Virus record (IMG/VR): IMGVR_UViG_3300025876_000119
Span: 1-22,794 of that record
DNA: 22,794 nucleotides
Source of the DNA: a virus
Reading direction: 5' to 3' (one strand)
Shown here: positions 1 to 22,347 of the stretch, in pieces
How the letters are laid out: each line of letters begins with the position of its first letter
Position numbering within the stretch: the stretch's first letter is position 1
The notes under the pieces: model-generated
What the model was told of the DNA's origin: nothing
Databases searched by the model: none
Seen by the model: only the letters and a program-made list of their open reading frames with translations
Made by a program: the position numbers and the translations under genes

Positions 1-1009
1 CGATAGCGAAGCTGAAGTCCCGGTCAACGAAGATGACGTTCTCCTCAATCGAACCCTGCTTATCCAAGCGAGAGATGATTGCATCGAAGTCAGCCAAAGC
101 AGTTGGGATACCACCAGACCAGAGGTTGCCTCGGTTCTGAACAGCGTAGAAAACGCCTTCGGAACCAGCATTGACAGTGCCCGCGCCTGTAGCAGAACTA
201 AGCGCAGCTTCAGCACCAGAACCAGTATCAGCAGGAACAGCCTCAATCATAGCTGTCTCGAGGTAGTCGTCAAAGCGAAGACGGGTCTCGTGCTCGGACT
301 TCATGTACCACAAGTATCCGGAAGCTCCGTTCTCGGTGGTCACCTCAATCCATCCAATCTGAGCCATGTCAGAACCAGAGACAGCGTACTTGTCCTTGAT
401 GATGATTGGCTTGTTGTCGAAGATGAAGTCGTCAGCCTCGAGGGTTCCAACCATTCCGTCAGTGCCCTTAGCGAACTCAGAACCGTAAATCATTACGGTA
501 CAAGCGACGGCACCGGCGGGGTCAGCGACACCGGTCATAGCCTGACCAGCAGCCTCATAGTAGGCCACGGTAAACGTGTCTCCAGAAATAGACGTAACGA
601 CAGCCTTATTAGTAAGACCGCTTCCAGCAGTGTTGTCGGTGATGAATACCGTCTGGCCAGCACGGATAGCGATGTTGCCAGTACCGGGGTTGAGGGCGTC
701 ATTCACCGTCCATACAGCGCCGTTGTCGGTGCCAGCAGCCGCAGCAGAAGTGCAGTTGGTGTACTTAGTGTGGAGACGACCTTGCTCAGCCCACTTGATG
801 AGGTCTGAGTTGGTGGGCATCTCTGCTCCGACCATACGCATGAAGCCTGCGACGCTACGGTTGCCATAACGCTCGAACTCCTTCTCGTAAGTATCAGGGA
901 GATACTGGTTGAGGAAGTCGAAGTTGGTGATATAGTTGGTTGCAACTGGAACCCGCTCTGCGCTGGGTTGCAAGTCGAAACCGGGGGTTGCATTTACTGA
1001 ACCTGCCAT
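1..1009 (-). CDS. Major capsid protein, partial (3' end outside window)
   Basis: The frame is open from an ATG at 1009 to the window edge (336 complete codons, no stop), beginning MAGSVNATPGFDLQPS. It lies 6 bp after the scaffold gene in the canonical TerL-portal-scaffold-capsid order, and this position is the main reason for the call. The visible part is a mixed soluble protein. N-terminal segments rich in Phe, Tyr and Arg (for example NYITNFDFLNQYLPDTYEKE, residues 25-44) resemble the start of HK97-fold capsid subunits. A Gly/Ala/Thr-rich stretch (about residues 90-185) could be an insertion domain. No N-terminal delta domain separate from the scaffold is obvious, fitting use of a separate scaffold protein. 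The spacer before the ATG is AAGAAAAC-like and A-rich, without a Shine-Dalgarno. A decoration or other head protein is less likely given size and position. Confidence 0.8.
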   Translation of the reverse strand, partial: MAGSVNATPGFDLQPSAERVPVATNYITNFDFLNQYLPDTYEKEFERYGNRSVAGFMRMVGAEMPTNSDLIKWAEQGRLHTKYTNCTSAAAAGTDNGAVWTVNDALNPGTGNIAIRAGQTVFITDNTAGSGLTNKAVVTSISGDTFTVAYYEAAGQAMTGVADPAGAVACTVMIYGSEFAKGTDGMVGTLEADDFIFDNKPIIIKDKYAVSGSDMAQIGWIEVTTENGASGYLWYMKSEHETRLRFDDYLETAMIEAVPADTGSGAEAALSSATGAGTVNAGSEGVFYAVQNRGNLWSGGIPTALADFDAIISRLDKQGSIEENVIFVDRDFSFAI

Positions 1010-2094: not shown

Positions 2095-4530
2095 TTATCG
2101 TGGACTAAATTCTGCCAAGTCGAAACCATCGAGGCTATCCTCATTCGACTCGAAATTCATGGGCGGCAAGTTATTCTTCCGCTGGTCAATAAGCTTGCTC
2201 TGCTCAGTATTTTGTTGACTGATACGCTGTGACTTAGCGCCCTCGCGCTTATCCTCACGCATCTGCAACTGCTGCTCCTGCATACCGTGGAGCTGCAAGT
2301 TGTATTGGAACTCGCGCTCCATGAGCTGGGCCTTAGCTTGAGCCTCGGCCTGCATCTTCTCAATCTCGAAAGCAATCTCCGCCTGCTTGACCTGCATCTT
2401 GCTCTGCGTCTCAGCCTGAATCTTTTGCATAGCCGTCTGGGCCGCCATCTGCTGGGACTGCATATTGTTCTGAGCCTGCATCTGCTGCTGCTGGAGCTGG
2501 AACGTACGCTCCTCCTCCTGCTTAGCGATACGCTTAATCTTCAAGAGCTGGTTGGCGAGCTTGATGTTTTTAATCTCGCGGATATCGATAGCGTCCTCGA
2601 GGTCGATACCACCTTTGCTTAGAGCCATTTGGATATTGGCTTCGAGCTGGGCACGCTGCTCCTCGTCGGGGCTGACCTCAATAAATACACCGAAGTCGTA
2701 GATATACAAGTCGCTAATCTCTCCGAGGATGCTGACGTTGTACTTACCAATCTGGTTTACAAACTCGTCCTTGAAGTCAGCGTACTCCAAGATATCGCTG
2801 ATACGGTATGTCAAAGCCTCAGCCAGAGAACGGAACATATACAGGCTTCCGTCCAGAATATGGCGGGTAGCCGTATTGCTGTTGGCGGCAGCGAGCTTTT
2901 GCAACCCGACCAAAGCGTGTGGGTCGGGAATACTTCCGTCGCGGGCTTCGTTCAAACCCGTTACGTCACGAATCATCTGCAAGTAGTGATTCATATTCCC
3001 AATTAGCATCTGCGTCTTAGCCGCACCGCTGTTGCTATTGAGCTCTTGGATAGGAACCTTGCCTTGATTGTACTCTCCGTCCTGAGTATACGAGCGCCCT
3101 ACGACACTACCAGTTTGGAAATACAGGCGCAAAGCATCCTCGGGGCTATAGGCATTGCCCGTACCGAGGTCGACTTCACTAAGTCCGTCGGCATCGATAT
3201 ACACGCCGTCGGGAACGGTGCGCGAGATGACCTGCTGGAGCTTGAGGTGGGTAACCTGAATGAGGTCGGCGAAAGGAATCATACGCCGCGTAAGCGACTC
3301 GATGACACCCTTGTACATGCGTGGTGCTGTAGCCACATAGTTGGGCAGCGCGTGCTGACTAGCAGACTTCGGGCGCACCATATTCTGAGCTACCTCCCAC
3401 TTGAGTAGGATGTTGGTGCCCATCACCATGATGCCGTCGTACCATACGTCGATGGTCTTCTCGACCTTCTCGTAATCGCCCTCCTCCATCATCTCCTCGG
3501 GAGGATTGAACTGGTCGTCTTTTTCAATGACGCGAGCCCCATCGCCGTCAAGCTTCTTACGCTTGTAGACAATCTTCTTAGTCGTCTTGTAATTGAAGTA
3601 CATCAGCGTAGCTACGTCACGATAGAACATATCGTTCTCGTAGTACTGAGCCACGTTGTAGTAATCGTACCAGCTCTGGCTGTACTTGCTAATCTCTTCC
3701 AAGTCCTCGTTGGTGAGGTTGGGGTCAATCTTCATAAGCTCCGTGATAGGGAGCGTCTTAATCTCTCCCCAGTAGAAGCAGTCTTTAAAGTATGGGTCTT
3801 CGGTATAGCTGTAGACCACATTGGCGGGGTCGACATACGAGACCTGAACGCCCGCGCCGGGGAGGAACTCGTGCTTAGCTACGCTAAGTCCCAGTACAGC
3901 AAGGTCGTAGTCGAGGCGCTTGCGCGTATCGGTATAGTGGTTTTCTTCGAGGATGGTATTGATAGCTTCCTCCTCAGCAATCTCTATAGCAGGCTTGTAG
4001 TTGAGCTGCATAAAGACCTTAAGCTCCTCGTCGCTGTTAGGCAAGTCGTCGGGGCTCATAGTAAACGGGTCGACACCAGTCTTCTGCTGAATAATTTCTA
4101 AGACGGGCTTGGCTACCATCTGCCCCTCAATCATATCCTGATACTTGCTGCGCTTAGCTTGCGAGAGAGCATCTTGAGCGTAAGCCTTGACTTTGAAGAC
4201 GCGCTCGGACATGCCGTTGACGACGATGTCAATAAACTTCGGGAGGATAGGAACCGGGGTCCAGTCCAAATTCAAATACGAAAGGTCACCATCGACAGCG
4301 AGCTCGTTCTTGTACTTAGCGATACTCTGCTCGCCACGAGCATAGAGCCGCAAGCGGTTGAATTCGCGCCACTGGTTATAGAACCGGCATTGGTTGCCAT
4401 CCTTCTTAAACCACTCGTACTGAATGGCCTGACCTACCATCAAGCCGTACTCATCACTAGCCTTCTCCGAGTCAGAAACAAACTGACTTGGGAACCCAGC
4501 AGTGGAGATGTTTACCTTGACGTCCTTCAT
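2095..4530 (-). CDS. Portal protein
   Basis: An 811-aa protein immediately downstream of TerL: its ATG abuts the TerL stop with no gap. Portals form the dodecameric ring at one capsid vertex through which DNA is pumped and to which the tail attaches. The first 650 residues look like a large alpha/beta portal body (NQCRFYNQWREFNRLRLYAR near residue 45 is a typical N-terminal helix). Residues from about 655 onward are a long Gln/Met/Glu-rich coiled coil (EEERTFQLQQQQMQAQNNMQ and following), then an acidic tail ending DLAEFSPR. The length exceeds the 500-600 aa of many siphovirus portals and matches the long P22-like group with an extended C-terminal barrel. The exact portal family cannot be settled by eye. 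Neighbours TerL and scaffold make the role secure. Confidence 0.93.
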   Translation of the reverse strand: MKDVKVNISTAGFPSQFVSDSEKASDEYGLMVGQAIQYEWFKKDGNQCRFYNQWREFNRLRLYARGEQSIAKYKNELAVDGDLSYLNLDWTPVPILPKFIDIVVNGMSERVFKVKAYAQDALSQAKRSKYQDMIEGQMVAKPVLEIIQQKTGVDPFTMSPDDLPNSDEELKVFMQLNYKPAIEIAEEEAINTILEENHYTDTRKRLDYDLAVLGLSVAKHEFLPGAGVQVSYVDPANVVYSYTEDPYFKDCFYWGEIKTLPITELMKIDPNLTNEDLEEISKYSQSWYDYYNVAQYYENDMFYRDVATLMYFNYKTTKKIVYKRKKLDGDGARVIEKDDQFNPPEEMMEEGDYEKVEKTIDVWYDGIMVMGTNILLKWEVAQNMVRPKSASQHALPNYVATAPRMYKGVIESLTRRMIPFADLIQVTHLKLQQVISRTVPDGVYIDADGLSEVDLGTGNAYSPEDALRLYFQTGSVVGRSYTQDGEYNQGKVPIQELNSNSGAAKTQMLIGNMNHYLQMIRDVTGLNEARDGSIPDPHALVGLQKLAAANSNTATRHILDGSLYMFRSLAEALTYRISDILEYADFKDEFVNQIGKYNVSILGEISDLYIYDFGVFIEVSPDEEQRAQLEANIQMALSKGGIDLEDAIDIREIKNIKLANQLLKIKRIAKQEEERTFQLQQQQMQAQNNMQSQQMAAQTAMQKIQAETQSKMQVKQAEIAFEIEKMQAEAQAKAQLMEREFQYNLQLHGMQEQQLQMREDKREGAKSQRISQQNTEQSKLIDQRKNNLPPMNFESNEDSLDGFDLAEFSPR

Positions 4531-6762
4531 TTAGTCCAATCGTTCACTACGAAAACCTCGGTTGTTGTATCTCGGCAAGTTAATGCTTATAGAACTCTTC
4601 TTCTGCTCAGGCATATAGAGGTGCTTTTGGTTCGCCATCACCGCCAATCCACTGCTGATAGTCGCGTCGAAAGCAGTCCTATTGCTGATATCAAAACGCG
4701 CCCAATCCTCCAGTGTGCGTACGAAAGGCATGGTGCCTATCTCTCCCGTATCGCGGAAGGTTCCTTCCATATCTACACCGATGTGTTTTTCTATGTAGCT
4801 CTCGATAGCTGCGGCATGGGCTTGCTTAACATCCTCAGAACTGTTAGGTATTCCACCAAGTTCGCGCTCCGTCTTACTGAGTTTATTGAACTGCTTATCG
4901 GGGCGGTTCATACAGAAGCCACGGTACCCCCGGTTCTTAAAGTGGTATAGCAGGCGAGGCTTGTTGTTCTCGATAAGGATAGGCATACCATAGAAGACGC
5001 ACGCCATCAACACCTCCTCGAAAAATATCTCTGCCGTCTGGGGCCTAGCTACATACTCCAAGAAGAACTCGTTGGTAGGGGCGTCGTCCATATGGAACTT
5101 CGTCATTCCGTGAAGAGCACCGTTAGAACCGCCGCCACCCACAGTACCGCTAATGTCGTAAGAGTCGCATCCAAATGAGCCAAGGTGCTCGTTACCAGCA
5201 TATTTAATTCCACGTCGTTCTACTACTCTATTCTGTTGCGCCTTGTTTGGAGTCCAAGAGATATTAAACCTTCCCCTCCTATCGGGACGGAATATTACTT
5301 TGCTGTCTTTGATTCCGTTCTCCCAACTGAAAGACCCCCGCGTGAGGTAGTGCTCCTTGACTAGGCTGTCGGCGTAATCTATCTGTTGGTAGATTTTAGT
5401 GAGGTTGAAAAGGCTCTGCTTACTCTCGTCACGGAAGGCATGGGACTCAGTGCGAGGGAACTGGCGGTAGAATTCGTTGAGCGCATCGGGGTCGCTCTTC
5501 ATACTCTCTACCTCAGCCTCCCAGTAGTCGATGGCGCCTCCCTTAATCATCTCCCCGTCGACGCCCTTTACAGGCTTCTCTGGAGCATTGAAGACAGGGT
5601 GGCCGTACTGGTCGATGAAGCCTTCCATGTTGTACTCCATGGGGATAAACAAAGAGTACATCCCGCTCTTAGTTTGCCCGTTAGCATTTCTGGTAAGTGG
5701 GTGGGAATCTTCGTACAGCTTCTTGAAGTTGGCACCACCCTTAGCTAAGGCATTGGATGTAGAGCCCATCAAGCACTTGCCGATAATCTTACTTCCCAAG
5801 CGCAAGCACGTCTTGGTGACGCGCCAGTTGTTGAGGATGTTGTTGGGCTTAATCCACTTCCCACTTTCGTCATGTACCAGTAGGAGAAGTTTCTCTCCGT
5901 CGTAGGAGTTGTCGTCGGTATTCTTCCAGTCGATGGTGGTATCTAGGCCAAGGATTTCCTCGGCTTCGATGTCGTACATATTCTTCTTGGTAATCTTTGA
6001 GGCCGGGACACGGAAAGCAAGTTCCGTCTTTGGCTTATCCATGCCGTCTTGTATCGGTTTGAAGAAGAACGGAAGTCGGTTTGCGATAGGAACCACCTTG
6101 TCCGTGAACATCTTCTTGGCATCAGAACCGGTCTTGGAAAGTATACCTACCCGAGAGTCCTTGGCTAGAGTACCGGTATTGACACACTCCGAGGAACCCA
6201 TGAAGGAAAATCCAGAGCGACGAATCTTGAGGTACGCCATACCAAAACATCGGGAGTCGGCTTTGCATGCTTCCCAGAAGATAAAAAATATCCTGTTGGC
6301 CTCACGGAAGTCGGGGTAGCCCACATCGATACTTGTCCATTGCAAGTACATATAGTGGGCGCCCGTGATATATGTCGGCACGCGGTTGTTGTAGAACCAA
6401 TGGCCGTCCTCACGTCGGTCGAACTCCGACTCGATATAGTCCACCCACTCGGACTTAAATACCTTCGGCATATCATTCCATTGGAAGATGCTTTGGATGC
6501 GTGAGAGGGCCCGAGGGAGCTCCTTACGGACCCATCTATTGTCGCCGTCGGAGATGTCTTTAGGTGCCGGGGGGAGAGCGATATTTACGCCGTTGATATT
6601 GATGATGTCTCCAACCTTCCCCGTCTTGGAGATGATGACCATATCGTACTTCTCGTTATAGCCATAGAGCCATGTCTTAGCACGGTTCTTATTAGCCATA
6701 ACAGACTTCGATACCAGCCCTTCTACAGGGCTATACAGCTTATCTCGACCTTCGCTCTGCAA
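4531..6762 (-). CDS. terL: Terminase large subunit (packaging ATPase/nuclease)
   Basis: A 743-aa DNA-packaging motor that docks on the portal, pumps DNA with ATP and cuts concatemers. In the ATPase domain, a deviant Walker A region KIRRSGFSFMGSSE lies at residues 179-192, Walker B LLLLVHDE at 292-299 (D298, E299) and a coupling motif GKCLMGSTSN at 328-337. The RNase H-like nuclease domain follows: FGCDSYD with D533, ILIENN with E598, and FDISNRTAFDA with D691/D699 near the C-terminus. It is longer than common terminases (450-600 aa) because of about 110 extra N-terminal residues and an insertion before the nuclease. The annotated ATG overlaps the preceding gene by 23 bp. An internal ATG 21 codons later (VMANKNRAK) is an alternative start. 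Confidence 0.96.
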   Translation of the reverse strand: MQSEGRDKLYSPVEGLVSKSVMANKNRAKTWLYGYNEKYDMVIISKTGKVGDIININGVNIALPPAPKDISDGDNRWVRKELPRALSRIQSIFQWNDMPKVFKSEWVDYIESEFDRREDGHWFYNNRVPTYITGAHYMYLQWTSIDVGYPDFREANRIFFIFWEACKADSRCFGMAYLKIRRSGFSFMGSSECVNTGTLAKDSRVGILSKTGSDAKKMFTDKVVPIANRLPFFFKPIQDGMDKPKTELAFRVPASKITKKNMYDIEAEEILGLDTTIDWKNTDDNSYDGEKLLLLVHDESGKWIKPNNILNNWRVTKTCLRLGSKIIGKCLMGSTSNALAKGGANFKKLYEDSHPLTRNANGQTKSGMYSLFIPMEYNMEGFIDQYGHPVFNAPEKPVKGVDGEMIKGGAIDYWEAEVESMKSDPDALNEFYRQFPRTESHAFRDESKQSLFNLTKIYQQIDYADSLVKEHYLTRGSFSWENGIKDSKVIFRPDRRGRFNISWTPNKAQQNRVVERRGIKYAGNEHLGSFGCDSYDISGTVGGGGSNGALHGMTKFHMDDAPTNEFFLEYVARPQTAEIFFEEVLMACVFYGMPILIENNKPRLLYHFKNRGYRGFCMNRPDKQFNKLSKTERELGGIPNSSEDVKQAHAAAIESYIEKHIGVDMEGTFRDTGEIGTMPFVRTLEDWARFDISNRTAFDATISSGLAVMANQKHLYMPEQKKSSISINLPRYNNRGFRSERLD

Positions 6763-7021
6763 AACCCATCTTGCTATCTGCCACGGTCTTTGTCTCCGAC
6801 AAACCCAAGGCTTCCTCCTCGGAATCTATGCGACTCAAAATCTCTAGCGCGTCGAAGATGGCGAGCTTCTTGGTAGCCGCCGCATTCTTTAGCCTGTCCG
6901 CTGCGAGGTCGTCGTCGTCGCCCGGCTTAAGGATATCCTCCTGAGCCACCTTGATGAGCTCTTCAACAGCTATACGCCCCGCAGCGATGATGCGCTCCTT
7001 TAGCTTCTTTGAATCTTGCAT
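6740..7021 (-). CDS. Candidate terminase small subunit
   Basis: A 93-aa, probably all-helical protein directly upstream of terL, overlapping it by 23 bp and overlapping the preceding gene by 22 bp. Small terminase subunits bind the packaging site and regulate TerL and usually sit exactly here. Visible features are an N-terminal charged helix (LKERIIAAGRIAVEELIKVA), an acidic turn GDDDD at residues 34-38, a helix AADRLKNAAATKKLAIFDAL and a polar C-terminus. No clear helix-turn-helix can be claimed, and the protein is shorter than most TerS (120-180 aa). The call rests on position, size and helical composition only. It could instead be another small packaging or head-assembly factor. Confidence 0.5.
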   Translation of the reverse strand: MQDSKKLKERIIAAGRIAVEELIKVAQEDILKPGDDDDLAADRLKNAAATKKLAIFDALEILSRIDSEEEALGLSETKTVADSKMGFAERRSR

Positions 7022-7551
7022 GTTATCTGGTGGTCAAACATTCGGTACAACTTCTCTCCGTCTACGATAAACTCGTACTCGCTCTCCGGACGGAACGTAA
7101 CGGTGTCTCCGGACTCAACGCCTTGACCCATAAGATAATCATTAGGATATCTCATAATACCCATCAGCGGCTCCTCACTTACGGGCTTAAATATTGTTGA
7201 GTCTTCAGGTGGTATAGGTTGCACAAAACAATACCTGTCGTGGGGATGCCAGTCCCCATCGCTGCGGTACATATAGAACTGGTCGAAATCGACAAGGAAG
7301 AGGTCGTCTTTAAGAAAACTCCTACCGCTTTGCCTACGGCCCTTCATGTCGTTATAGAACTTGAAGACGTTATGGTGGACAAGGAGGGTATCCCCAACAC
7401 CTATAGGACCCTCATAACCCAACGGCAATGCCACTACCTCTCCCTCGCGGTTTGAGAACCGGTGGTCCTCCTCGCTAGTATTTACGATGAGGTCGCCCTT
7501 GGTGTTATTGTATCTGTGTCCCCTAACTACGAATTGATTGACGGCTCTCAA
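7000..7551 (-). CDS. Tandem GroES-like (co-chaperonin-fold) protein
   Basis: A 183-aa protein that reads as two GroES-type beta domains in a row. Domain 1 (about residues 5-97) has a strand FVVRGHRY, a loop segment GDLIVNTSEED at the mobile-loop position, GEVVALPLG (37-45), GVGDTLLV (51-58) and LKDDLFLVD (80-88). Domain 2 (about 103-181) has HDRYCFVQPIPPE (104-116), then GVESGDTVTFRPESEYEF (144-161), VDGEKLYRM (163-171) and HQITCKI (174-180). The latter closely mirror the C-terminal GroES pattern of GDxVxF, then E, then DGEEYLxxR, then DIxAVI. Single-domain GroES is about 95 aa. The start is TTG, overlapping the upstream stop as TTGA; the next Met is too far inside. It is transcribed just ahead of the terminase, so a head/packaging folding role is possible. 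A beta-barrel structural protein that merely shares the fold is the alternative. Confidence 0.68.
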   Translation of the reverse strand: MRAVNQFVVRGHRYNNTKGDLIVNTSEEDHRFSNREGEVVALPLGYEGPIGVGDTLLVHHNVFKFYNDMKGRRQSGRSFLKDDLFLVDFDQFYMYRSDGDWHPHDRYCFVQPIPPEDSTIFKPVSEEPLMGIMRYPNDYLMGQGVESGDTVTFRPESEYEFIVDGEKLYRMFDHQITCKIQRS

Positions 7552-7772
7552 AAGTTAATATTGTATTCTATTGAAGTAGGCATCGTGCTATTGAACTCTT
7601 TCCAAAGCACCACGATATCGCCCTGCTCAATATAGATGAGGATTGACCCGGTATCCTCATTGTATTTAATTAAATGCACATGGTGGGAGTTGCCTAGTAC
7701 GGCTTGTCCCACCAAGTAACACATGGAGTCCTTATAGTCAGGACCAATACAAACCTTGCGTATGTCTCTCAC
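7548..7772 (-). CDS. Small hypothetical protein
   Basis: A 74-aa protein, not recognised. It starts with GTG (MRDIRKVCIGPDYKDSM); the GTG overlaps the upstream fibre-gene stop by one base (TAGTG), and its own stop overlaps the next TTG start (TTGA). This tight coupling is the main evidence that it is real. The sequence alternates hydrophobic and polar residues (SILIYIEQGDIVVLWKEF, residues 43-60), suggesting a small beta-rich fold. There is no membrane segment and no signal peptide. It lies between a tail fibre and the double GroES-like protein, in the same transcript as the packaging genes. Confidence 0.65.
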   Translation of the reverse strand: MRDIRKVCIGPDYKDSMCYLVGQAVLGNSHHVHLIKYNEDTGSILIYIEQGDIVVLWKEFNSTMPTSIEYNINF

Positions 7773-19918: not shown

Positions 19919-20341
19919 ATGAACTATTTAAAGTACTGGCGCGTAGTGCGCTACTTCATCAATGCCAAATACGGCATATCGCAGCCCGACCTAGAGATGC
20001 TCATCTTCCTCTACGATGAGCCATACTTTACCCGGGCCAAATTCAAAGAGTTCGATAAAGTCTTCTCGTGGGATAAAGACCGCTTCAAACGCCTAGTAAA
20101 AAACGGGTGGGTGGAGAAAGTATCCGTAGAGTCAAAGTCAAGGCTAGGCGTATACAACCTGACCTACGCAGCCAAGAGAGTAGTAGGGTACGCATATGCC
20201 ATACTGCAAGGCAAGGAGTTCCCAACAGACGACCAGAACAACCCAGTCTTTAAACGCAACGTGTCATTTACCGATAAGATGTACCGGAACGTGATGATGG
20301 AAATCAATGAAGCACAACGACAACATCGCGCTCAGAAATAA
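19919..20341 (+). CDS. Winged-helix (MarR-like) protein, candidate phage regulator
   Basis: The only supported plus-strand gene. 140 aa from the ATG at 19919 (MNYLKYWRVVRYFINAKYGI), chosen because the leader is A-rich (CCCCAAATTACA) and because an ATG 42 bp upstream would overlap the divergent 30-aa gene. Layout of a winged helix-turn-helix: helix QPDLEMLIFLYDE (22-34), helix FTRAKFKEFDKVF (37-49), recognition-like helix KDRFKRLVKNGWV (53-65), a wing VSVESKSRLGVYNLT (68-82) and a long helix AAKRVVGYAYAILQG (84-98). This matches the MarR core, although the C-terminal dimer helices are short. It is divergent from the small-gene/structural cluster and convergent with groES (38-bp overlap), a natural place for a transcription switch between modules. 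DNA binding is inferred. Confidence 0.72.
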   Translation: MNYLKYWRVVRYFINAKYGISQPDLEMLIFLYDEPYFTRAKFKEFDKVFSWDKDRFKRLVKNGWVEKVSVESKSRLGVYNLTYAAKRVVGYAYAILQGKEFPTDDQNNPVFKRNVSFTDKMYRNVMMEINEAQRQHRAQK

Positions 20342-20564
20342 TGGTGCGGGCAATACCATCAATCAACATAGTATAGCTGGCACGCTTGTCGTAGTATAGC
20401 TCCTCGCCAGCGTCGATGCTGGTGACGTCAGTGCCAGAAGCCACAACGAGACCACGACCGTAGCGCATCTGGTCGGCGTCGTCAGAACTGAGTAAGATGC
20501 CGCTGGCAGTAGTCGTCTCCTCCTTGATGGCGTCGATGACAATATATTTTCCTATGGGACGCAT
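20304..20564 (-). CDS. groES: GroES co-chaperonin
   Basis: An 86-aa lid protein for the chaperonin. N-terminal strand GKYIVIDAIKEE (residues 5-16), a mobile loop (about 15-32) with the hydrophobic tripeptide ILL in TTTASGILLSSDDA (the GroEL-contact IVL position), GRGLVVASG (37-44) and the C-terminal strand pair MLIDG...TIISERDVVVVL (66-85), equivalent to the DGEEYLILRE.DILAVI end of GroES. It is about ten residues shorter than cellular GroES (95-97), mainly in the roof/middle region, as in other phage cochaperonins. It is the last gene of the groEL operon and overlaps the previous gene by 13 bp; its 3' end overlaps the convergent plus-strand gene. It probably works with the neighbouring GroEL, perhaps also with the host one. 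Confidence 0.93.
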   Translation of the reverse strand: MRPIGKYIVIDAIKEETTTASGILLSSDDADQMRYGRGLVVASGTDVTSIDAGEELYYDKRASYTMLIDGIARTIISERDVVVVLH

Positions 20565-20809
20565 TGAATAAAAATTGGTGTCAGCGGACCCATATACGCG
20601 CCCGCAATATTAAAATCAAAATGCTCTATAGCTCCCTCCTCGTCCATATCGTGCTCGAGGACTAAGAGCTCAAGGATACGCCCGATGTCATAGCACACGC
20701 GGTATCCCTTGTCAACCTCAGTGATGCCGATGATGGCAGCGTCAAAACCGTCGGCGAACATAGCCCCGGCATCAATGGCCTCAAGCCAATCAGTAATCTC
20801 TTCCCTCAT
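20552..20809 (-). CDS. Conserved-looking acidic protein between groEL and groES
   Basis: An 85-aa, strongly acidic protein. Helices EEITDWLEAIDAGAMFADGF and YDIGRILELLVLEHDMDEEG, then EHFDFNIAGAYMGPLTPIFI (residues 62-81). The D...FNI.GAY.G..TP.F pattern is one I associate with a small protein seen in many phages, without assigned function. It sits between groEL (ATGA overlap) and groES (13-bp overlap), so all three are co-translated. That makes a role linked to the chaperonin, such as substrate or assembly adaptor, conceivable. No enzyme motif and no membrane segment. Gene call firm, function unknown. Confidence 0.7.
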   Translation of the reverse strand: MREEITDWLEAIDAGAMFADGFDAAIIGITEVDKGYRVCYDIGRILELLVLEHDMDEEGAIEHFDFNIAGAYMGPLTPIFIQCVP

Positions 20810-22347
20810 GCCCGTGCCAGTGTGATGATAGCCTGAGTACTCAAGATAGTGACCGCAACGCTTACAGCGTTCTGTAAAGCAGACTTAGTGACGCGGGTAG
20901 GGTCGATGACGCCCATGTCAATCATGTCGCCGTACTCGCCAGTCTTAAGGTTGTAACCGCTGCCGTCAGGTGCCATACTGTAGTCAAAGTCTTCGCCGCA
21001 GTTCTCCATAATCTGATGCAAAGGAGCACGCAAAGCCTCACGCAATACTTCAGCAGCAGCACCCTTACGGTCTGATAACCAGTTGCTTAGGTTGTAAAGG
21101 GTGACGCCGCCGCCAGCAACAATGCCGTCTTGCATAGCAGCGCGGACAGCGCACACAGCATCGTCGACCCTGTCGTATAACTCCTTCTGCTCTAGGTCAG
21201 TATGGCCCCCAACCTCAATCACTCCTATACCTCCAGACAAGCCAGCGATGCGCTGGTTGATGAACTCTTTGTCGACGCGACGCTTGGTTAGTCGATATGC
21301 CTCCTGAAGCTCAGCGATGCGCTCGTCGATACCATCCTCTTTGTCGCCCTTGACAATGACAGTACTGTCGCGACCCACAACAACACGGTCAGCAAAACCC
21401 AAGTCGTCGAAAGCCATGAGGCTTAAGTCGTCGCCAGTCTTCTCACTGAAATACGTAGCACCAACGCTGACAGCCAAGTCTTGCATAAGCTCGTGCTGCT
21501 TATACCCGAAATTAGGAGGAGGAACAACACAGACCTTTAAACCCTTCTTGACAACATTGGCAGCAAGGGTGTTGATGACGTGAGTGCTGCACGGAGCAAC
21601 AATGAGAAGACGCTTGCCCTCACGGATGATAGGACCTAAGACGTTCTCGATACTTAAGATATTGTTTATCTCGCCGTCGCAGACCATAACGTGACAACCG
21701 TCTAGTATGCTCTCGTCACGGCTCTGGTCGTTGACGAACAACTCGCTGGCATAGCCACGGTCGAGCTTGAAACCATGAGTGACATCGAAACCAGTCTCGC
21801 TCGTCATACTCTTCTCGACAGTGACAACACCGTCTTTGCCAACCTCGCCATATACCTCAGCAATTAAATTGCCGATGGCCTTATCGTTGTTAGCACTGAT
21901 AGTAGCCACACTCCTCAAGTGCTTCTTGTTCAACCGACGGCTGCGACCGTCAAGCTCCGCAACAACATCTTTAGTCAAAGACACCATGTCGCGCAAGACG
22001 TCAGTCTTTTTGGTATCGCCACCCAATACCCGTAAGCCACCCTTGACCAAAGCCTCAGCCAAAACAATGCTAGTAGTAGTACCGTCGCCAGCCTCACTGG
22101 CCGTCCGGTCAGCAGCCTCCTTCATAATCCGTACCGCCAAGTTCTCGACAGGGTCAAGCAAGTCAACAGCCTTAGCCACAGTAACACCATCCTTAGTGAC
22201 CGTAATGCCATGGGTGTGGTGAGGACTCTCGATGAGTACCGTCTGGCCGCTAGGACCCAACGTACTCCTTACAGCTCGACTCAACTGCTCAATGCCGCTG
22301 ATGAGCTTGTCGCCTTCGAAGTGAAGGTCTTTAGGTATTTCATTCAT
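20806..22347 (-). CDS. groEL: GroEL chaperonin (phage-encoded)
   Basis: A 513-aa group I chaperonin that folds proteins in an ATP-driven double ring. ATP-site motifs: STLGPSGQTV (28-37; K and R of the usual GPKGRNV are replaced by S and Q), TKDGVTVA (51-58), AGDGTTTS (86-93; D88 equals the D87 of E. coli), GLSGGIGVIEVGG (369-381), VDDAVCAVRAAMQDGIVAGGG (394-414; D396 as the hydrolysis Asp). Apical helices align with E. coli Y199 (Y199 here), F204 (F204) and, by memory-based alignment, V263/V264 replaced by Ala262/Ala263. The C-terminal GGM tail is absent (ends ILSTQAIITLARA). The start at 22347 is chosen because the 40 codons before it run through a CT-repeat and are non-homologous. ATGA overlap with the next gene. 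Its role is presumably folding of phage structural proteins. Confidence 0.98.
   Translation of the reverse strand: MNEIPKDLHFEGDKLISGIEQLSRAVRSTLGPSGQTVLIESPHHTHGITVTKDGVTVAKAVDLLDPVENLAVRIMKEAADRTASEAGDGTTTSIVLAEALVKGGLRVLGGDTKKTDVLRDMVSLTKDVVAELDGRSRRLNKKHLRSVATISANNDKAIGNLIAEVYGEVGKDGVVTVEKSMTSETGFDVTHGFKLDRGYASELFVNDQSRDESILDGCHVMVCDGEINNILSIENVLGPIIREGKRLLIVAPCSTHVINTLAANVVKKGLKVCVVPPPNFGYKQHELMQDLAVSVGATYFSEKTGDDLSLMAFDDLGFADRVVVGRDSTVIVKGDKEDGIDERIAELQEAYRLTKRRVDKEFINQRIAGLSGGIGVIEVGGHTDLEQKELYDRVDDAVCAVRAAMQDGIVAGGGVTLYNLSNWLSDRKGAAAEVLREALRAPLHQIMENCGEDFDYSMAPDGSGYNLKTGEYGDMIDMGVIDPTRVTKSALQNAVSVAVTILSTQAIITLARA

Follow-up and report, generated by a model that had tools for sequence, protein, structure and literature searches.

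The locus and its gene order

The stretch of DNA analyzed here (hereafter, the window) is an IMG/VR record of 22,794 bases, which is taken as a fragment because the nearest named relative genome extends over 60,850 bases. The earlier note had placed an ORF of 183 aa at positions 7000–7551, and our analysis confirmed it on the minus strand. It is predicted to encode a tandem GroES-fold protein (referred to here as the double GroES), based on an AlphaFold2 model and a match to PHROG 13932, "co-chaperonin GroES" (E 5.1e-20; residues 2–170 against positions 3–190 of the 200-position profile). The start codon is TTG and overlaps, within the tetranucleotide TTGA, the stop codon of a 74-aa ORF (7548–7772, minus strand). 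The minus-strand order runs from this 74-aa ORF through the double GroES and a 93-aa ORF (6740–7021), which overlaps both of its neighbors, to the terminase large subunit (TerL; 4531–6762; phrog_6681, E 1.2e-179) and the portal protein (2095–4530; phrog_6547, E 2.2e-143; also Pfam P22_portal).

The two small ORFs are taken from the ORF list, and neither has a confident family match in Pfam, PHROG, or NCBIfam. Judging from its place and size, the 93-aa ORF may be the small terminase subunit. It is missing before TerL in Elemovirus, phi40:1, and Panino, and TerL of these phages is ~130 residues longer than that of the window (876–879 versus 743 aa). A profile comparison addressing a fusion of the 93-aa ORF into the longer TerL gave 10.9% versus 0.2% and 0.1% for reversed controls, which is a hint but no proof. 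An ORF of 71–80 aa is also found directly upstream of the double GroES in Elemovirus, phi40:1, Calle_3, Panino, and MW202828.

A normal GroES and a GroEL, both claimed by the earlier note, are encoded on the minus strand of the same window and score above the Pfam cut-off. The single-domain GroES is an ordinary one of 86 aa (20304–20564; Pfam Cpn10, 35.5 bits), and the GroEL has 513 aa (20806–22347; Pfam Cpn60_TCP1, E 8.6e-53; NCBIfam NF009487, 469.5 bits with a cut-off of 352). In the interval between these two genes lies an 85-aa ORF (20552–20809) that matches phrog_13182 (E 5e-20), to which PHROG assigns no function, and it is possibly a third member of the chaperonin operon. In addition, the best PDB sequence match of the window's single GroES is the N-half of a tandem Cpn20 chain (7ekq_R, E 1.5e-8), which outscores every bacterial GroES listed.

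Our data show that 7000–7551 is a real gene on which purifying selection acts strongly. Compared codon by codon with its relatives, it gave dN/dS values of 0.03–0.08 in five pairs; seven pairs had been tried, with one saturated pair and one of unequal length left out, and some pairs lie near synonymous saturation. A chance reading frame is ruled out by these values together with the many relatives of the protein described below.

Predicted fold and sequence of the two halves

The double GroES was modeled by AlphaFold2 without templates, using an alignment of 32 sequences. The resulting model (mean pLDDT 80, pTM 0.74) displays two GroES-like barrels in tandem, namely, an N-terminal barrel (residues 1–101; 7249–7551, minus strand) and a C-terminal GroES/Cpn10 barrel (residues 102–183 plus the stop codon; 7000–7248, minus strand). 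Confidence was lowest (pLDDT <50) at residues 15–18 and 20–31, which we take to be the position of the GroES mobile loop (residues 15–31; 7459–7509, minus strand), and it was ~60 at residues 61–80. A Foldseek search of the PDB returned only two matches below 0.001, i.e., 7ekq_Q (E 5.9e-5) and 7ekq_R (E 8.6e-5). The latter is the best full-length solved match (Z 10.1, rmsd 4.4, 154 residues, model residues 1–181); the entry is titled CrClpP-S2c, with chain R described as "Cpn20 co-chaperonin subunit" and chain P as "Chaperonin 11". After 7ekq came GroES and gp31 chains aligned to the C-half (Z 7.2–9.0). In a search of predicted viral structures, the highest ranks went to a 186-aa protein (E 2.2e-21) and "Chaperonin cpn10" of phi18:3 (200 aa, E 3.8e-13), and many single GroES proteins appeared at lower ranks. 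The structure prediction and the fold search against GroES and Cpn20 thus bear out, at the level of predicted fold, the two-domain GroES-like protein that the earlier note had proposed.

The N-half was also modeled alone (pLDDT 77, pTM 0.69). The first 29 rows of its Foldseek search against the PDB were all co-chaperonins (best E 0.016, none below 0.001), as were the first 16 entries of a second structural comparison (Z 5.1–7.2, a range below 8 in which values can be common). Entries past these co-chaperonins reached a Z of at most 4.2 and were mostly dehydrogenases, presumably of the kind that holds a GroES-like domain. The N-half also drew a Pfam Cupin_2 match (E 0.0052, below the cut-off), but assignment as a cupin was rejected, as the fold search ranks co-chaperonins first. 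By prediction, then, both halves are GroES-type barrels, with the N-half being the less certain of the two.

All of the motifs quoted in the earlier note are present, with GEVVALPLG, GVGDTLLV, and LKDDLFLVD followed by GDTVTF, VDGEKLYRM, and HQITCKI. Its claim that the N-half repeats the C-half is upheld by the predicted fold but not by sequence, since profile-profile comparisons of the halves gave non-significant probabilities of 1.9% and 3.8%; a sequence-visible repeat is therefore not supported.

Pfam Cpn10 (PF00166) scores the window protein at 15.7 bits (E 0.016), below the 21.1-bit cut-off, and the C-halves of phi18:3 (33.3 bits), the L109 record (26.0 bits), and phi38:1, phi40:1, and Calle_3 (24.1 bits) all exceed that cut-off. 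The window protein had no match in NCBIfam or among the PDB sequences, and in a PDB profile search the best match to 7ekq_R was restricted to the C-half and not significant (E 0.34). A C-half profile built from 34 members matched the single GroES of these phages with a probability of 70%, and one built from 39 more diverse members did so with 95.4% (E 1.9e-8; reversed controls ≤1.1%). The N-half profile reached 1.8% against the single GroES, and the N-halves of eight members had no co-chaperonin match in Pfam.

The 39 members were further scored with a model built from 12 single-domain GroES proteins of phages, with 200 shuffles of each; as the members are related, these are not 39 independent tests. 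All 39 C-halves fell within the top 5%, and 24 of them beat every shuffle. The N-half signal was weak, with 5 of the 39 beating all 200 of their own shuffles (~0.2 expected) and 12 reaching the top 5% (~2 expected), phi18:3 being the best (12.9 bits). As judged from sequence, the C-half is a Cpn10 relative in the relatives examined, and the N-half is GroES mainly by its predicted fold.

The N-loop has 29 residues in the window and 29–36 across the 39 aligned members. Its letters include DLIV in the window and GGIDLIV or SGLILN in relatives (often GGI-LIV- or SGLILN-like), and the window's single GroES carries the akin SGILLS. The place of the second mobile loop (residues 111–130; 7162–7221, minus strand), defined from alignment lengths, has 20 residues in the window, which is among the 35 of 39 members with 18–21 residues, and the C-loop has 27–29 residues in L109, L110, phi40:1, and phi18:3; all loop lengths hinge on the alignment. 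In Cpn20, each of the two domains has a mobile loop of full length; the window protein pairs an N-loop of 29 residues with a C-loop of 20. Because the N-loop is long and the C-loop is short in most members, we read the sequences as suggesting that the N-barrels bind GroEL and that this binding has been lost from the C-barrels of most members.

The N-domain also contains an HHN triplet (residues 59–61; 7369–7377) that is invariant in the 34-sequence alignment and is not kept in phi18:3. HHN is not known to be a GroES trait.

Family members, TerL linkage, and accompanying chaperonins

Relatives of the double GroES are encoded in at least 599 IMG/VR stretches, and all 17 family members tested matched PHROG 13932; the profile match is to a co-chaperonin family and not to an unrelated phage structural family, the outcome that would have spoken against the earlier note. 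A search of the phage collection retrieved 77 matching records, from 68 Flavobacterium phages (host strain BAL314 in all cases), 7 Cellulophaga phages, 1 Maribacter phage, and 1 metagenome phage. With a divergent family query, 85 records were found, 15 of them from Cellulophaga phages, including phi18:3, phi13:2, phi46:3, and phi19:3. Labels among the matches listed read chaperonin cpn10 or co-chaperonin GroES, and some read hypothetical. The family is already known, as PHROG 13932, RefSeq, and GenBank name it co-chaperonin GroES or cpn10.

Published accounts of these phages mention chaperonins as well. "Chaperonin cpn10" is listed among eight Pervagoviridae proteins tabulated by Bartlau et al., where the single or the double gene may be meant, and from that table we take the eight to be core proteins (PMC8776804). 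GroEL was reported in 36 related environmental genomes by Nishimura et al. (PMC5332604), and GroEL and GroES homologs were reported for Panino (PMC11590407). In the stretches of the Panino record examined here, the "GroES" label sits on the double gene, and the single gene is labeled hypothetical. When the open-access literature was screened by title, opening lines of the abstract, and frequency of terms, no publication turned up on a phage GroES with two joined domains. Within the literature searched, its tandem architecture, the reduced length of its C-loop, and its constant co-occurrence with a single GroES look undescribed.

A scan of bacterial and archaeal genomes uncovered 19 family loci, every one of them in a MAG, under a mix of names. 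One close relative (63%) lies beside TerL in a record of 1.05 Mb that bears the title Candidatus Aenigmatarchaeota chromosome (L126), a setting that reflects either a provirus or an assembly error. The viral scan with the Panino protein gave 13 pattern matches, none of which is a relative.

The location beside the terminase, also part of the original claim, proved to be a general feature of the family. Of 108 loci, 107 have a TerL match downstream of the double GroES; the distance is no more than 600 bp for 101 of them and 728–734 bp for 6, and the contig of the remaining locus ends 188 bp on. These 108 are the loci, out of 110, that gave a whole ORF (the two dropped should be L042, with its start cut off, and L081, the stretch with the window's single GroES), and they are redundant, comprising 34 representatives at <88% identity. 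TerL likewise lies downstream in 17 of the 19 MAG loci, with the remaining two breaking off within 165 and 250 bp.

We assessed the company of other chaperonin genes in 26 records, picked mostly for length. A single GroES above the cut-off was present in 21 and GroEL in 19 of them. Using a 58-kb line that was drawn after the results were seen, all 15 records of at least 58 kb have a single GroES above the cut-off and 13 have GroEL (in one case only a gene end at the contig edge); these long records are partly close kin (phi38:1/phi40:1/Calle_3 and Elemovirus-like phages) and hence not independent. Two records of 71–73 kb, phi18:3 and the L109 record, carry both the double and the single GroES and have no GroEL gene. 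Among the records shorter than 58 kb, neither a single GroES nor GroEL was found in five, and among the named phage records GroEL is present in six of seven. Collectively, the double GroES never occurs without a single GroES in the long records searched, and it can occur without a phage GroEL.

Putative role and known counterparts

We consider it probable that the double GroES is a Cpn20-like phage co-chaperonin that forms part of a GroEL lid, is made with the packaging genes, and helps virion proteins to fold. This reading is favored because of the fold matches, the Cpn10 sequence of the C-half, the TerL linkage, and the company of a single GroES and GroEL. The protein would be made together with packaging and head proteins through the overlapping reading frames, and it would cap either the phage's own GroEL or, where the phage has none, that of the host, presumably gripping it mainly via the N-domain loop. 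Its substrates would be large virion proteins folding in GroEL, such as capsid or portal subunits, given that the gene adjoins those for the terminase and the portal and that gp31 offers a parallel in its action on the T4 capsid protein. The capsid-specific lid suggested by the earlier note is a conjecture of this kind.

Several observations count against a co-chaperonin. The C-half, with its short loop in 35 of 39 members, may not bind GroEL. The N-half, besides its lack of a Pfam co-chaperonin match, leaves 27 of 39 members outside the top 5% of shuffles and has a best Z of 7.2, within the common range. Furthermore, no GroEL gene was found in phi18:3 or the L109 record, both of which encode the double protein.

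The double and single GroES may combine in a mixed ring of seven domains, e.g., three doubles and one single, as the chloroplast Cpn11, Cpn20, and Cpn23 seem to do. We put this forward tentatively; it is attractive because the phage, with one single and one double protein, has the same parts list as the chloroplast, where functional rings with seven GroES-like domains are assembled from single and double subunits (PMC5780408). In its fullest form, and just as conjecturally, the proposal is that phages of marine Flavobacteriia and their relatives evolved a Cpn20-like lid apart from plastids. In such a mixed seven-domain lid, only the N-barrels and the singles would grip GroEL, the C-barrels with their cut-back loops would shape the dome for a virion protein, and the whole would be deployed from the terminase-portal-capsid operon.

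Alternatively, the double protein could act by itself, as a homo-oligomer of six or eight domains that gives GroEL a second lid, separate from the single GroES and with substrates of its own. We regard this variant of the co-chaperonin reading, whose odds overlap those of that reading, as less likely than not. Lids of six or eight GroES-like domains can work, and Cpn20 of plastids and apicoplasts functions as a homo-oligomer (PMC5780408); moreover, the double and single genes are widely separated in the genome. Against it, such a lid would have few binding loops, given the short C-loop of most members, and a single GroES is present in every long record searched.

The protein could instead be a virion or packaging part (a neck, head completion, or terminase accessory protein) that has the GroES fold and is no chaperone, a structural use that the earlier note had also raised. 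Its fixed position before TerL and the portal, the shortened C-domain loop, the invariance of HHN, and a non-significant PDB sequence match of the C-half to 9gb5_G, a neck valve protein of a phage (E 0.34), all speak for this option. However, co-chaperonins are the top fold matches, the N-loop keeps mobile-loop length, and a single GroES is always present in the long records. Database annotations weaken it further. In the phi40:1 record, an MS/MS-based structural tag is attached to many genes, including gp091–093 and gp097–100, and is lacking on gp089 (the double GroES) and on TerL; the phi18:3 record tags gp085–087, 099, 104, and 112–115, and not gp096 (the double GroES). These tags are database notes, and their absence is weak evidence, as TerL and some late genes are untagged too. 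The phi38:1 GroEL is made in infected cells and was also detected in free-virion samples, and the double GroES is outside the two methylated-protein tables of that study, which has no bearing on its presence (PMC13288928). On balance, we judge a purely structural role improbable.

Least probable is a cap or inhibitor of the host protease ClpP. The idea comes from the best structural match, whose entry is titled CrClpP-S2c, and from the CPN11, CPN20, and CPN23 heterotetramer, a complex of this type described on ClpP in Chlamydomonas (PMC8889267). Cpn20 is also an ordinary GroEL-type lid (PMC5780408), and the annotated neighborhood of the double GroES holds no pointer to Clp.

If the co-chaperonin reading is correct, a widespread phage double lid that travels with a single partner and terL would be a further case of a design confined, in the literature searched, to plastids and apicoplasts, and perhaps an independent one. 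Phages phi38:1 and phi18:3 on Cellulophaga baltica would then provide small culturable systems for studying a two-domain lid on a seven-fold cage, and such systems would let one ask why a virus needs a second lid. With both lids and no GroEL gene, phi18:3 would also be suited to studying the way in which a phage retunes the host GroEL.

Among known proteins, the closest are the PHROG 13932 and RefSeq co-chaperonins of Cellulophaga phages phi38:1 and phi18:3, Elemovirus, and Maribacter phage Panino, which belong to the same family (~180–200 aa, upstream of TerL). They are named GroES, cpn10, or hypothetical, with two domains unmentioned in the records examined, and the window clade has a shorter C-domain loop than phi18:3, phi40:1, L109, and L110. 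Compared with the single-domain phage and bacterial GroES (PF00166), to which its C-half is related, the double GroES is twofold longer, and the window protein scores below the Pfam cut-off. T4 gp31, also a phage co-chaperonin serving head assembly (PMC5780408), matches each half of the double GroES in fold (Z 7.2 and 6.5). Whereas gp31 is a single GroES domain replacing the host GroES, the protein described here has two predicted domains, and a separate normal GroES is encoded in the same window. With chloroplast and apicoplast Cpn20, the double GroES shares two predicted GroES-type barrels per chain, a single-domain partner, and a full-length structural match to the model. It differs from Cpn20 in having no significant full-length sequence match and a short C-domain loop, and in being encoded by a phage, beside the terminase.
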